Assembly (NCBI RefSeq): GCF_900217815.1
Contig: NZ_OBMT01000002.1
Location: 1-64,000 of the forward strand
Reading direction: 5' to 3'
From: Rhodobacter maris
GTDB lineage: Bacteria > Pseudomonadota > Alphaproteobacteria > Rhodobacterales > Rhodobacteraceae
Length of the DNA: 64,000 nucleotides
Shown: in pieces, positions 34,820 through 43,835 of the stretch
Position numbering within the stretch: position 1 is the first letter of the stretch
Layout of the letters: each line of letters starts with the position of its first letter
Program-made: the position numbers and the translations under genes
Notes under the pieces: model-generated
What the model was told of the DNA's origin: nothing
The model's input: the letters and a program-made list of their open reading frames with translations, nothing else
The model's database searches: none

Positions 34820-36685
34820 TCAGAGCGCGGACATGCAGCCGCTGTACCCCTCAAGCAGCGCCGCCTCGAACCGATTGACGAAATCCCGGGAGTCGCCCAG
34901 CGTGCGCTCCCAGGCGCCGCCCGCAAGATGTGCACGCAACCGGCCATGCCGCTCCGGCGACAGGGCGATCGCGACCGCGAGCTCTTCATACTGCGGCAGA
35001 TCGGCGGCGACGCAGTCGTCAAGCCCGACCGCGGTGAGCAAGCTCGCCCCCATCCGCGCCACGAAGGCCCGCCCGAGCGTTGTCACGAGCGGCAGGCCCA
35101 TGCGCAGCGCATCCGAGGCGATGGTGCCCGCATTGTAGGGGGTGGTGTCGAGGAAGAGATCCGCCAGCCCGAGACGGGCGCGATAGCGCGCCGGATCGGT
35201 GCGCCCGGCAAAGATCAGCCGCTCCGGCGCGAGCCCTGCTGCCGCCCAACGCGCCGCAAGCGCCGCGCGGGAAACGGGATTGTCGCCGATCAGCCAGAGC
35301 ACGGAGCCGGGCACACGCGCGACGATGCGGCACCAGCTCTCCCAGACCGGCTCTGTCAGCTTGTAGTGATGAGACATGCAGGTGAAGACGAAGGCGGTCT
35401 CGGGCAAGCCTTCTGCGGCGCGGGTAAGATGCGGCAGAGCGGGCATGCGCCCGTCATTGGCCTGATAGCACCCCTGCAGGCGCAGCGGCCGCGGCTGGTA
35501 TAGCGCATCCATCTCGGGCGGGATGGTGACCGCATCGCAGATCAGGAAATCCATCTCCGGCAGCGGCACCGGCCCGATATAGCCCAGGTAGGTTGCCTGC
35601 ATCGGTGCAGGCTTGCGGCGCAGGATCGGCAGCCGTGCGCCCTTGGTGAGGCCGTTCAGATCGATCAGGATGTCGATCTCGTCGTCGCGGATGCGCTGTG
35701 CTGCCTCCGCATCGGAAAGCGCGGAGATCGGCACATGATGATCGAGCGCGGCAAGCACCCGATCGCGGATATCACTGCCATCCTCGGGCGAGCAATCATA
35801 GCCCCAGATCTCGAAACGCGTGCGATCGTGCCGCTCAAGCAGTTCGGCAATCAGGAAGCTCATCGCATGGCGGCAGAAGTCGGAAGAGAGATAGCCGATC
35901 CGCAGCCGCTCATGGTGATACCCGCCGGGCGGAAGCGGCAGATGCGCGACATCGGGCACATTGCGGCGGATCCAGTCGGAGCCGATCGCCGCCTGCCGGA
36001 GAGGATCGTCAACGAGCGCCAGAGCGGCGAGCGGCCCGGCGTTCAACTCGGCCTGTTCTTCCGTGACGGCCGGGATCGCCAGAGCCGTCGGCGGCCAGGC
36101 AACGCAGCGCTGGCGATTGTGCACCAGATGCTGGATGACATTGGGCTGATCGGGCGCCAGCAGGAGCGCCGCGCGCGCCTCGTCGATGGCCTCGCCGAGC
36201 CTGCCCTGTTCCTCGAGCATCCGGGCGAGCTGCACATGGATCTGCCGCCGCGCCTCAACGGGCAGGAGCGCCTCGCGCAACGCGTCAATCGCGGCTTCGC
36301 GCGCCCCGGCGCCTTCGAGCGCGAGGCCCCGCCCGAGAGCCCCTTGCCAGAGTGCGGGCTGCAAACGGAATGCCGTGCTGAACGCCAGGGCGGCCTCCTG
36401 ATGCCCTCCCTGCTGCTGCAGGGCCACCCCGAGATTGTACCAGACCGGTGCCGCTTCTATCCCGCGTCCGGGCTGTGCGAGCCAATCCCGGTAGAGCATC
36501 GCCGCTTCGGGCGCGGGGCGTTCCTCAAGCAGGCCGATCAGCGCGCCGGCGTCCAGCCGGGCGAGGCCGCCCGCCCCGCTCCCGCCACCGAGGCTTGCCT
36601 CCCCCTCCGATTCCTCTCCGGACGGTCGAGAGACCATGGCCAGTTCTTGCGGAACCCGGGTCTGTATCTTGGCAATGTGGGACAA
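34820..36685 (-). CDS. GT41-like O-linked glycosyltransferase with N-terminal TPR region
   Basis: 621 residues. Residues about 60-200 read as tetratricopeptide-type helical pairs (VWYNLGVALQQQGGHQEAAL, AIDEARAALLLAPDQPNVIQ). Residues about 260-610 match the O-GlcNAc-transferase/SPINDLY fold: RIGYLSSDFCRHAMSFLI, DILIDLNGLTKGAR, QATYLGYIGPVPLPEMDFLI and the nucleotide-sugar loop DTTPYNAGTIASDALRMGLP. Such enzymes attach a sugar to Ser/Thr of proteins in the cytosol. The start is TTG at 36685 with AAAGGA nine bases upstream; an ATG 16 codons later is an alternative. It is divergent from a giant Ser/Thr-rich octapeptide protein, its most obvious candidate substrate. Confidence 0.88.
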   Translation of the reverse strand: MSHIAKIQTRVPQELAMVSRPSGEESEGEASLGGGSGAGGLARLDAGALIGLLEERPAPEAAMLYRDWLAQPGRGIEAAPVWYNLGVALQQQGGHQEAALAFSTAFRLQPALWQGALGRGLALEGAGAREAAIDALREALLPVEARRQIHVQLARMLEEQGRLGEAIDEARAALLLAPDQPNVIQHLVHNRQRCVAWPPTALAIPAVTEEQAELNAGPLAALALVDDPLRQAAIGSDWIRRNVPDVAHLPLPPGGYHHERLRIGYLSSDFCRHAMSFLIAELLERHDRTRFEIWGYDCSPEDGSDIRDRVLAALDHHVPISALSDAEAAQRIRDDEIDILIDLNGLTKGARLPILRRKPAPMQATYLGYIGPVPLPEMDFLICDAVTIPPEMDALYQPRPLRLQGCYQANDGRMPALPHLTRAAEGLPETAFVFTCMSHHYKLTEPVWESWCRIVARVPGSVLWLIGDNPVSRAALAARWAAAGLAPERLIFAGRTDPARYRARLGLADLFLDTTPYNAGTIASDALRMGLPLVTTLGRAFVARMGASLLTAVGLDDCVAADLPQYEELAVAIALSPERHGRLRAHLAGGAWERTLGDSRDFVNRFEAALLEGYSGCMSAL

Positions 36686-36762
36686 GCGGAGATCCTTTCT
36701 GGAAACCGGCCCCGGCGGGCCATCCGGCGAATCCTCTCAGTTCAGCGTTAATGCCCGCTTAA

Positions 36763-36806
36763 TGCGGCTCGTTTAAGCAAAGTGATGCGCCTCGTTTAGG
36801 CAAAGT
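36763..36806. repeat. 21-bp direct repeat in the divergent promoter region
   Basis: Two copies of a 21-bp sequence at 36763-36783 and 36786-36806 (period 23 bases) differ at two positions and share CTCGTTTA and GCAAAGT cores. They lie between the divergent glycosyltransferase and octapeptide-protein genes, so a dimeric regulator bound on one DNA face about every two turns is plausible. Confidence 0.6.
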
Positions 36807-36977
36807 TTACGCACTTTGTGACACCCGAGCACACCAAAGCGCAGCGCTGTTTACGCCTCGCTAAGATGTTTTCTGCACTTTTCCCTCTGTGCGGGTGTCC
36901 GGCATCCGGCGCAGCTTGTCTCGATAAAAAGCTTCGGGGCGGAACCAACCAGAGTCCATTTTGTTCGGGAAAAACAA

Positions 36978-41858: not shown

Positions 41859-42593
41859 ATGGGTGCGGGAATCGAAATCCATGTTGCCACACACAAGCAG
41901 ACGGGTTTCCCGCTGGATCCAGGTTATGTGCCCATTCATGCCGGAAGGGGGATCGCGGAGGTCGATCTCGGTATCCGTGGCGACGACACGGGCGACAATA
42001 TCTCATCGCGCAATCCGCACTTCTGCGAATTGACCGCGCTTTACTGGATCTGGAAGAATTCAGACGCCGCGATCAAGGGCCTTGTCCATTACCGCCGCCA
42101 TTTCATCCCGAAAGCCCGAATGGCACCCATTGGCCTGATCGGCGTTGCGGCCTCTGATGATTTTGATGAATTCTCAGATGGTTATGATATGATCTTGCCA
42201 GACAAGATCACCCTGACAGACCCCGGTTCCGGGGCACCTCAGACCGTCGAACGCCAGTATGATGCCACAGCCGTTGGGTTTGATCTGGTGCTGACGCGCG
42301 CGGTGCTGGAAGAGTTCCATGCGCCCTATATTCCCTATTGGGATTTCGTCATGCGCAACTGCAAACTGCATCCCTATAATATCATGATCGCGCGAGCCGA
42401 AGTTTTCGATGCCTATTGCGCCTGGCTGTTCGACATCCTGTTCCGGCTCGAACCCCAGATCCCTTTCCGCGACTACCCGCCCTACGAGGCACGAGTATTC
42501 GGATTTCTGGCAGAGCGGCTGCTCAATGTCTGGGTGGGGCGCCATCGCACGAGCTGCCGCGTGGCCTTCCGCCCAGTCGGGATGCTGCCCTGA
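41859..42593 (+). CDS. DUF4422 putative glycosyltransferase
   Basis: 244 residues. The DUF4422 marks are clear: HKQTGFPLDPGYVPIHAG at the start, NPHFCELTALYWIWKN followed by LVHYRRHF, a YDATAVGFDLV block and a final YEARVFGFLAERLLNVWV. Members are bacterial capsule or LPS glycosyltransferases and are often found beside galactofuranose genes. The ATG at 41859 has TGGAG 8 bases upstream; a TTG one codon earlier is possible. It is 69 bases upstream of the UDP-galactopyranose mutase gene on the same strand, so probably co-transcribed. Confidence 0.85.
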   Translation: MGAGIEIHVATHKQTGFPLDPGYVPIHAGRGIAEVDLGIRGDDTGDNISSRNPHFCELTALYWIWKNSDAAIKGLVHYRRHFIPKARMAPIGLIGVAASDDFDEFSDGYDMILPDKITLTDPGSGAPQTVERQYDATAVGFDLVLTRAVLEEFHAPYIPYWDFVMRNCKLHPYNIMIARAEVFDAYCAWLFDILFRLEPQIPFRDYPPYEARVFGFLAERLLNVWVGRHRTSCRVAFRPVGMLP

Positions 42594-42662
42594 GCGCCAC
42601 CCGATAGCCGGACCGAAGGCTTCCGCCATCGCCATTCCAACTTCTCGAAAAGGGACACATCA

Positions 42663-43835
42663 ATGCCTGCAGGAACTGCACTTGTGGTCGGCGCCGGCTT
42701 TTCGGGGGCAGTGATTGGCCGGACCCTCGCCGAAGCGGGATGGAGCGTGCAAATCCTGGACGCCCGTCCGCATGTCGCGGGCAACTGCCACACCGCGCGC
42801 GATGCCCAGACCGGTGTCATGGTGCATGTCTACGGACCGCATATTTTTCATACCGACGACGTCGAAGTGTGGGAATATGTCAATCGTTTCATGCCCTTTC
42901 AGCCCTATCGCAATCAAGTCAAGACAACCGTGCGCGGCGCGGTGTTCTCGCTGCCCATCAATCTGCACACAATCAACCAGTTCTTTGGCCGCGTGATGCG
43001 GCCGGAGGAGGCGCGCAGTTTCGTTGCCGCGCTCGCCGATCCGTCAATCACGGCGCCGCAAACTTTTGAAGAACAGGCGCTCAGCCTCGTCGGCCGTGAT
43101 CTCTACGAGGCCTTCCTCAAGGGCTATACGGTGAAACAATGGGGAATGTCGCCGCAGGAATTGCCCGCCTCCATTCTCAAACGCCTGCCGGTGCGGTTCA
43201 ATTACGACGACAATTACTTCTTCCACCGGTTTCAGGGCATGCCGCGTGACGGCTATACGGCATTGGTCGAGCGGATACTCGACCATCCTGCAATCGAGCT
43301 GCAGCTTGGCACCACATTCCAGCGCGCTCAGGCAGACAACGCCGATCATGTGTTCTATTCCGGCCCGATCGATGCTTGGTACGATTACGAACATGGCCGG
43401 CTCGGCTACCGGACGCTCGATTTCGAGCGCTTCACCGCTTCGGGGGACTGGCAAGGCTGTGCGGTGATGAACTACGGTGATCTTGAGGTTCCCTTCACCC
43501 GCATCACCGAGCACAAGCATTTCTCCCCCTGGGAGCAGCATGACCTTTCGGTGCTTTATCGCGAATACTCGCGGGTCGCCGGGCCTGATGACATTCCCTA
43601 TTATCCGATCCGGCTCGCCGCGGAGCAATCGCAGCTGACCCGCTATCTTGAGCGCGCGAAACGGGAAAAACATGTCAGCTTCGTTGGCAGGCTCGGAACC
43701 TATCGCTATCTCGACATGGATGTGACGATCCGCGAAGCGCTCGATTGCGCGCGCGCCTTCCTTGCCGCCCAGCAACCGCGGCCGTTTCCGCTCGCGCACA
43801 GGCGTTCCGCCACCGGGGCACGCGCCCCACTTTAA
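42663..43835 (+). CDS. glf: UDP-galactopyranose mutase
   Basis: 390 residues. A flavoenzyme that interconverts UDP-galactopyranose and UDP-galactofuranose, the donor for galactofuranosyl polymers on the cell surface. The FAD-binding start is [20 protein letters not shown]. The mutase pattern is seen in [42 protein letters not shown], and a late [13 protein letters not shown]. It follows the DUF4422 gene, which makes a Galf-transferase role for the latter attractive. The presence of glf beside a putative protein glycosylation locus is a reason to consider galactofuranose as the modifying or extending sugar. Confidence 0.93.

Follow-up and report, generated by a model that had tools for sequence, protein, structure and literature searches.

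Why does the gene for an O-GlcNAc-transferase-like enzyme stand back to back with that of a giant protein built from Ser/Thr-rich octapeptides? The question is raised by a stretch of 64,000 nucleotides (the window; contig NZ_OBMT01000002.1, positions 1 to 64,000) from the 3.83-Mb genome of Rhodobacter maris. Open reading frame (ORF) calls and Pfam searches confirmed four genes at the places given in an earlier reading of this DNA, the original prediction. A glycosyltransferase of family 41 (GT41) with 605 amino acids and N-terminal tetratricopeptide repeats (TPRs) is encoded on the reverse strand (34820-36637, ATG at 36637). It is divergent from a repeat protein of 1545 amino acids on the forward strand (36978-41615), which is followed by a DUF4422 glycosyltransferase and a UDP-galactopyranose mutase (Glf). 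On balance we consider it probable that the first two genes belong to a dedicated system for the glycosylation and export of a giant helical-screw protein.

The repeat protein matches the Pfam family ALTTAQ_rpt (PF20080) in 57 stretches with 1208.7 bits, compared to a cut-off of 26.4. The match is far above chance; the repeat belongs to an existing family that had been missed in the original prediction. No second ALTTAQ gene was found in this genome. Within the 192 octads of the protein, Ser or Thr occurs at position 1 or 2 in 181, at position 1 in 107 and at position 2 in 86%. The description of nearly every octapeptide as beginning with one or two Ser/Thr is therefore right for both positions pooled. 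The octads are arranged in a supra-repeat of 17 (136 amino acids) with 80% identity at that lag and 77% at two periods (272 amino acids); six other lags that were tried gave 33-43%. The protein has a single Asn and neither Cys, His, Trp nor Tyr. N-x-S/T sequons are absent from the window protein, and its GT41-linked homologues have 2 to 27 of them. N-glycosylation of the window protein was rejected on this basis; any glycosylation of the protein should be O-linked, since one Asn and no sequon are available. The Pfam search also gave no match to the RTX glycine-rich nonapeptides (PF00353) in the repeat protein.

The closest solved sequence is PDB entry 9zem, 'HeliScrew4' (E=2.8e-14), which we take to be a designed protein. 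AlphaFold2 was applied to a piece of 272 amino acids, with an alignment made of nine overlapping pieces of the same repeat protein. A predicted local distance difference test (pLDDT) score of 94.4 and a predicted template modelling (pTM) score of 0.86 were obtained, and most octads contain a helix some four to six residues long. The scores of the five models were at least 93 for four and 38.7 for one. The protein is confidently modelled as a screw in which each octad contributes one short helix. In the model, the first Ser/Thr of the octad directly precedes the helix, the N-cap place, as read from the DSSP line. We claim no known fold, because the Foldseek matches were weak, with mesothelin only in the PDB (TM score about 0.3) and phage proteins among viral models (the three matches at E below 0.001 having TM below 0.3).

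In the GT41 enzyme, the catalytic domain (PF13844) was recognized with E=3.7e-62 and TPR_2, TPR_1 and TPR_8 scored over their cut-offs; the GT41 profile also matches human OGT chains. The gene is the only one of its kind found in the genome. In the alignment, the residues matching H558, K842 and D925 of human OGT are kept.

The pairing of the two genes was followed in 61 genomes, 18 of the genus and 43 outside it. ALTTAQ occurs in five of the 18 and GT41 in the same five, in all of which the two are divergent neighbours. Outside the genus ALTTAQ was found in 0/43 genomes and GT41 in 10/43. In a class-wide sample, ALTTAQ occurs in seven of 387 genomes; of the other six, five have a GT41 gene and four have it adjoining ALTTAQ. 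Starting from GT41 on GTDB contigs, with ALTTAQ sought by pattern, the repeat gene was found next to all five loci with at least 60% identity and next to none of the other 29. Three of the five are Rhodobacter genomes counted already, so that the new part of this result is two Rhodovulum loci. Among the 34 GT41 loci 21 match the query in part only, mostly in the TPRs, and are weak negatives for that reason.

Plasmids gave a similar picture. All 16 records in which 80% or more of the query is matched at 41% identity or higher, among the best 60 of 92 GT41 matches, carry ALTTAQ; 11 of them are from Cereibacter. A GT41 gene on an Azospirillum brasilense plasmid, with 43.8% identity over 74% of the query, is without ALTTAQ. 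Starting from the repeat, GT41 lies no more than about 10 kb away in at least 26 of 59 ALTTAQ plasmid records (11 of the 26 again from Cereibacter), a lower bound based on 60 of the 92 GT41 records with a single place in each. In a GT41 tree of 38 rows, ten of them of unusual make-up (four linked) and most linked rows picked by their ALTTAQ neighbour, the 19 linked rows group with two Magnetococcales rows in a single clade (94/94). The window's subclade of 14 rows is wholly ALTTAQ-linked (100/99), and the linked label needs two changes on the tree. The link between GT41 and the repeat protein is thus real, extends to other genera and involves enzymes that nearly form one clade.

A third component was missed in the original prediction. 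In the four other Rhodobacter genomes with the pair, it is flanked by genes for a methyltransferase, an HlyD protein and an ATP-binding cassette (ABC) transporter of 725 amino acids. The transporter occurs with at least 79% identity in exactly the five ALTTAQ and GT41 genomes of the 61, and the next best match by score has 37%. A type I exporter (ABC and HlyD) is therefore linked to the pair. Its C39 domain scores just under the Pfam cut-off, with a match from profile position 21 only, and no DCG motif was found in the first 80 residues, as is the case for non-cleaving exporters. Repeat, GT41, ABC and HlyD genes occur together on plasmid pA of Cereibacter sphaeroides 2.4.1, in Rhodovulum kholense, Niveispirillum cyanobacteriorum and Pseudoroseomonas, and on two Pseudomonas plasmids.

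For a comparison of linked and unlinked repeat genes, 52 ALTTAQ ORFs were used, 18 with GT41 nearby and 34 without. Near-copies (L113, L151) and ORFs with fewer than 30 octads (L109) were left out. L106 and L108 were assigned by hand to the GT41-linked group, as the GT41 gene lies on another fetched stretch (L105; L109, inferred to be one gene split over two contigs), and the window ORF was set by hand as GT41-linked with no type I ABC nearby. Among the 34, two genes are counted twice as halves (L162/L163, L164/L165) and L169 consists of two overlapping frames. A type I ABC gene adjoins 11 of the 18 GT41-linked ORFs, compared to none of the 34 others. The window protein ends in a hydrophobic tail, -SLFL (41601-41612, forward strand), a candidate uncleaved type I secretion signal. 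The pattern [AS]-L-[FLS]-[LM] was found in 14 of the 46 ORFs with an uncut C-terminus: nine adjoin an exporter, one is the window's own and four are second copies in Rhodobacter genomes with the exporter elsewhere.

In the mechanism we propose, the ALTTAQ polypeptide would be made in the cytoplasm and bound by the TPR part of GT41, and the GT-B part would transfer single sugars to Ser/Thr in O-linkage. The type I ABC protein with its degenerate C39-like domain, HlyD and an outer-membrane channel would then export the protein by means of its uncleaved hydrophobic C-terminal tail. Outside, its fold would be a stiff screw of short helices, covering cells or linking them as a rod-like surface layer; it may serve as a sheath or mucin-like layer, as supposed in the original prediction. 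As to the donor, an epimerase found with one seed is present in linked loci of G188 (Niveispirillum), G269, G213 and G418, and in Pseudoroseomonas a gene beside the GT41 genes is annotated as UDP-glucuronic acid decarboxylase. Taking these genes as one family suggests UDP-xylose as donor in some relatives. A Pseudomonas plasmid locus carries gmd. Next to the Rhodobacter pair no sugar-nucleotide gene was recognized except Glf in the window. On plasmid pA (L146, 388-6581), the cluster lies near dTDP-rhamnose genes, which are further off, and two sulfotransferase genes. A wider version of the proposal is put forward only tentatively: export-coupled O-glycosylation in Alpha- and Gammaproteobacteria might build glycosylated nanorods, the screw presenting its helix-start hydroxyls, the TPR-GT41 enzyme sugar-coating them before type I export and the rigid rod, with sugars displayed all along it, forming a sheath or biofilm matrix.

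Several findings weigh against glycosylation and export of the repeat protein, among them its Ser/Thr content, which the original prediction had read as a sign of glycosylation. The median Ser/Thr content is 26.3% in the 18 GT41-linked ORFs and 26.5% in the 34 others (p=0.27). Since the medians match with and without GT41, Ser/Thr richness is no evidence for glycosylation and was rejected as its mark. By octad position, Ser/Thr is lower with GT41 at position 1 (72% vs 76%, p=0.03), with 80.5% vs 76.9% at position 2 (p=0.05) and 30% vs 23% at position 3 (p=0.07). From the 52-ORF comparison and the AlphaFold2 model, in which the first Ser/Thr lies just before the helix, these residues look structural, a feature of the ALTTAQ fold. 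Ser/Thr-rich repeats should hence not be read as mucins where the fold itself may need Ser/Thr. In G188, which has both kinds of gene, positions 2 and 3 are Ser/Thr in 94 and 84% of octads of the linked protein compared to 30 and 32% in the unlinked one. Because of this contrast, additional exposed hydroxyls may be present on some GT41-linked ALTTAQ proteins. Where Rhodobacter genomes have both linked and unlinked ALTTAQ (four genomes), the gap at position 2 amounts to just 7-8 points.

The other opposing points concern the enzyme and the gene neighbourhoods. In the Rhodobacter GT41 enzymes the alignment shows Tyr at the position of H901 in human OGT. All counts given above are raw with respect to kinship, and several loci were picked because ALTTAQ was present. 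ALTTAQ genes with neither GT41 nor a type I exporter nearby are many. In the G188 family, where 17 of 82 genomes have ALTTAQ with E no higher than 1e-10, GT41 is near three of the 16 gene places fetched, some on stretches with one flank only. The repeat is also without GT41 nearby in the 13 remaining places, in second copies in four Rhodobacter genomes and in 12 plasmid regions (L150-L161) chosen as lying outside the GT41 matches listed (0/12; in L159 no ALTTAQ ORF was found by pattern). The repeat itself therefore needs neither GT41 nor exporter. Type I ABC genes are absent from the stretches of seven of the 18 GT41-linked ORFs, the window included, and Rhodovulum visakhapatnamense, Rhodovastum and Rhizobium daejeonense have the pair with no exporter in the stretch; in Rhodovastum it adjoins flagellar export genes instead. 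Two exporter-adjacent ORFs (L149, L173) are without the tail. Finally, the genome of the window has the matching ABC and HlyD genes on another contig (C32) with no repeat gene there, which does not support the self-contained system that had been proposed.

Repeat genes without a GT41 neighbour had been named in the original prediction as counter-evidence. Such genes are indeed many; the pairing itself held in all five repeat-bearing genomes of the genus. We do not take the GT41-less genes as refuting the link, since in four of the genomes concerned GT41 adjoins another ALTTAQ copy and most of the remaining genes are also without type I exporter and tail. The second ALTTAQ proteins found in four Rhodobacter genomes (L066, L068, L070, L072) are longer, with 2145-2281 amino acids, have no adjacent GT41 gene and end in a like C-terminal tail. 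ALTTAQ genes that adjoin flagellar export genes were observed in Rhodovastum atsumiense (L147, 1693-21912, annotated) and in G213 (L104, 1-17447, by eye).

Of the alternatives, the one that survives best is that GT41 acts on another target, for example flagellin, and adjoins ALTTAQ because such islands gather glycan genes. FlmG, as described in PMC7591256, is a TPR and GT-B enzyme for flagellins; the flagellar neighbours in G213 and Rhodovastum and the GT41 genes without ALTTAQ in ten genomes outside the genus point in the same direction. Within the genus, however, GT41 was found only with ALTTAQ, divergent in 5/5 (an orientation not kept outside the genus), and by eye no flagellar gene was recognized beside the window pair. 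We regard this explanation as unlikely. A little less likely still is that the GT41 protein serves chiefly as a TPR chaperone that maintains the giant protein in an export-competent state, with sugar transfer being minor or confined to few sites. The structural look of the repeat Ser/Thr is in accordance with such a role, and PMC3983070 discusses a chaperone role alongside glycosylation for HMW1C. Against this, the catalytic part of the enzyme is kept, including the residues that align with human OGT H558, K842 and D925, and sugar-nucleotide genes occur in several linked loci. That the ALTTAQ protein does not use type I secretion, but forms an intracellular filament or takes another exit while the exporter serves another protein, fits the exporter on another contig, the many repeat genes without one nearby and the flagellar export genes in Rhodovastum; it is improbable in view of the exporter genes adjoining the pair in four Rhodobacter genomes, Rhodovulum kholense, Niveispirillum, Cereibacter, Pseudoroseomonas and two Pseudomonas plasmids, and of the tail that tracks the exporter.

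Glycosylation followed by type I export, the reading we prefer, can be compared to systems already described, and is best read as working like HMW1C/HMW1 and FlmG/flagellin with different parts. According to PMC3983070, HMW1C is likewise a cytoplasmic GT41 enzyme for one large exported surface protein (HMW1, HMW2) that is modified before export. It differs in that an AAD domain replaces the TPRs, N-links are made and two-partner secretion is used. The window system shows neither the AAD domain nor partner sequons: it has TPRs, a partner with one Asn and no N-x-S/T sequon, linked type I exporter genes and an ALTTAQ screw as partner. In FlmG of Caulobacter crescentus, according to PMC7591256, the TPR domain binds the flagellins and the GT-B part glycosylates them in the cytoplasm before export. 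The window GT41 has this TPR and GT-B architecture. The sugar used by FlmG is pseudaminic acid, and the flagellins are exported by the flagellar apparatus, whereas the window enzyme has a giant repeat protein as neighbour and many relatives have a type I exporter.

The octad repeat itself is the same as in PF20080, with a full match, and the Pfam entry names the repeat only. In the open PubMed Central literature no match was found for 'ALTTAQ' or 'HeliScrew', nor did any paper there connect ALTTAQ with GT41 and type I export, for broader queries among the matches listed. If the proposal is true, HMW1C/HMW1 and FlmG/flagellin would be joined by another type of cytoplasmic glycosylation dedicated to a single exported protein, here combined with type I secretion and a very simple repeat fold. 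A repeat family merely named in Pfam would also gain a testable function. The whole set is carried by plasmid pA of Cereibacter sphaeroides 2.4.1, where the repeat protein is annotated as 'ICE nucleation protein'. The genes on this plasmid are DQL45_RS20570 for GT41, DQL45_RS23715 for the ALTTAQ protein and DQL45_RS20575 for the ABC transporter.

The DUF4422 gene (41856-42593, GT111-type, PF14393) and glf (42663-43835, TIGR00031 above cut-off) follow the repeat gene on the forward strand with gaps of 240 and 69 bp. DUF4422 matches Klebsiella WbbM (6u4b) with E=1.2e-29. According to PMC12269835, on galactan synthesis, DUF4422/GT111 is a galactofuranose transferase domain in WbbM, and PamA-PamB of Kingella form a DUF4422-Glf pair. 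The same pairing, with the GT111-type gene adjoining that of a UDP-galactopyranose mutase, was found in the window. The WbbM and PamA-PamB modules act on lipopolysaccharide (PMC12269835); the window DUF4422 was found in one genome of 61, its own. Glf occurs in 11 of the 61, in none of the four other Rhodobacter genomes with ALTTAQ and GT41 and in five of the 13 genus genomes without ALTTAQ. Both genes are neighbours and no conserved part of the system, and galactofuranose decoration, proposed originally, was rejected as a conserved component on these counts; the pair is probably a separate galactofuranose module. The GC content is 57-60% at DUF4422 and glf; the GT41 gene and the greater part of the repeat gene have 66-72%. 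This drop is a weak argument, since the stretch beyond, with lipA, is equally low. An insertion-sequence remnant with a transposase helix-turn-helix lies just past glf on the reverse strand (43832-44176, PF01527, E=3.5e-6, over the cut-off). The gene order and the WbbM and PamA-PamB precedents suggest a self-contained cassette, with O-glycans begun by GT41 and extended with galactofuranose by DUF4422 and Glf, and presence in one genome alone is still compatible with a role there, but the distribution of both genes, the insertion-sequence remnant and, less so, the GC drop make such a cassette very unlikely.

The divergent intergenic region between the starts of the GT41 and repeat genes (36638-36977) has 340 bp and contains two copies of a 23-bp direct repeat (36762-36806), a possible regulator site. 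On the reverse strand an ORF of 1610 amino acids overlaps the repeat-gene stretch; it was taken as spurious, because the codon model and Pfam alike favour the forward strand. In a comparison of the block (34671-44939) the genes dus, mazG and amidohydrolase to its left are kept in all six genus genomes examined. In the search for an empty site, the 10 kb fetched after these genes in the six genomes contained no lipA, and synteny within the genus breaks at the repeat block. Further to the left in the window, three adjacent genes on the reverse strand (23282-24904, 25093-25851 and 26101-30564) encode Hint_2-domain proteins, two of which (541 and 1488 amino acids) carry RTX repeats.

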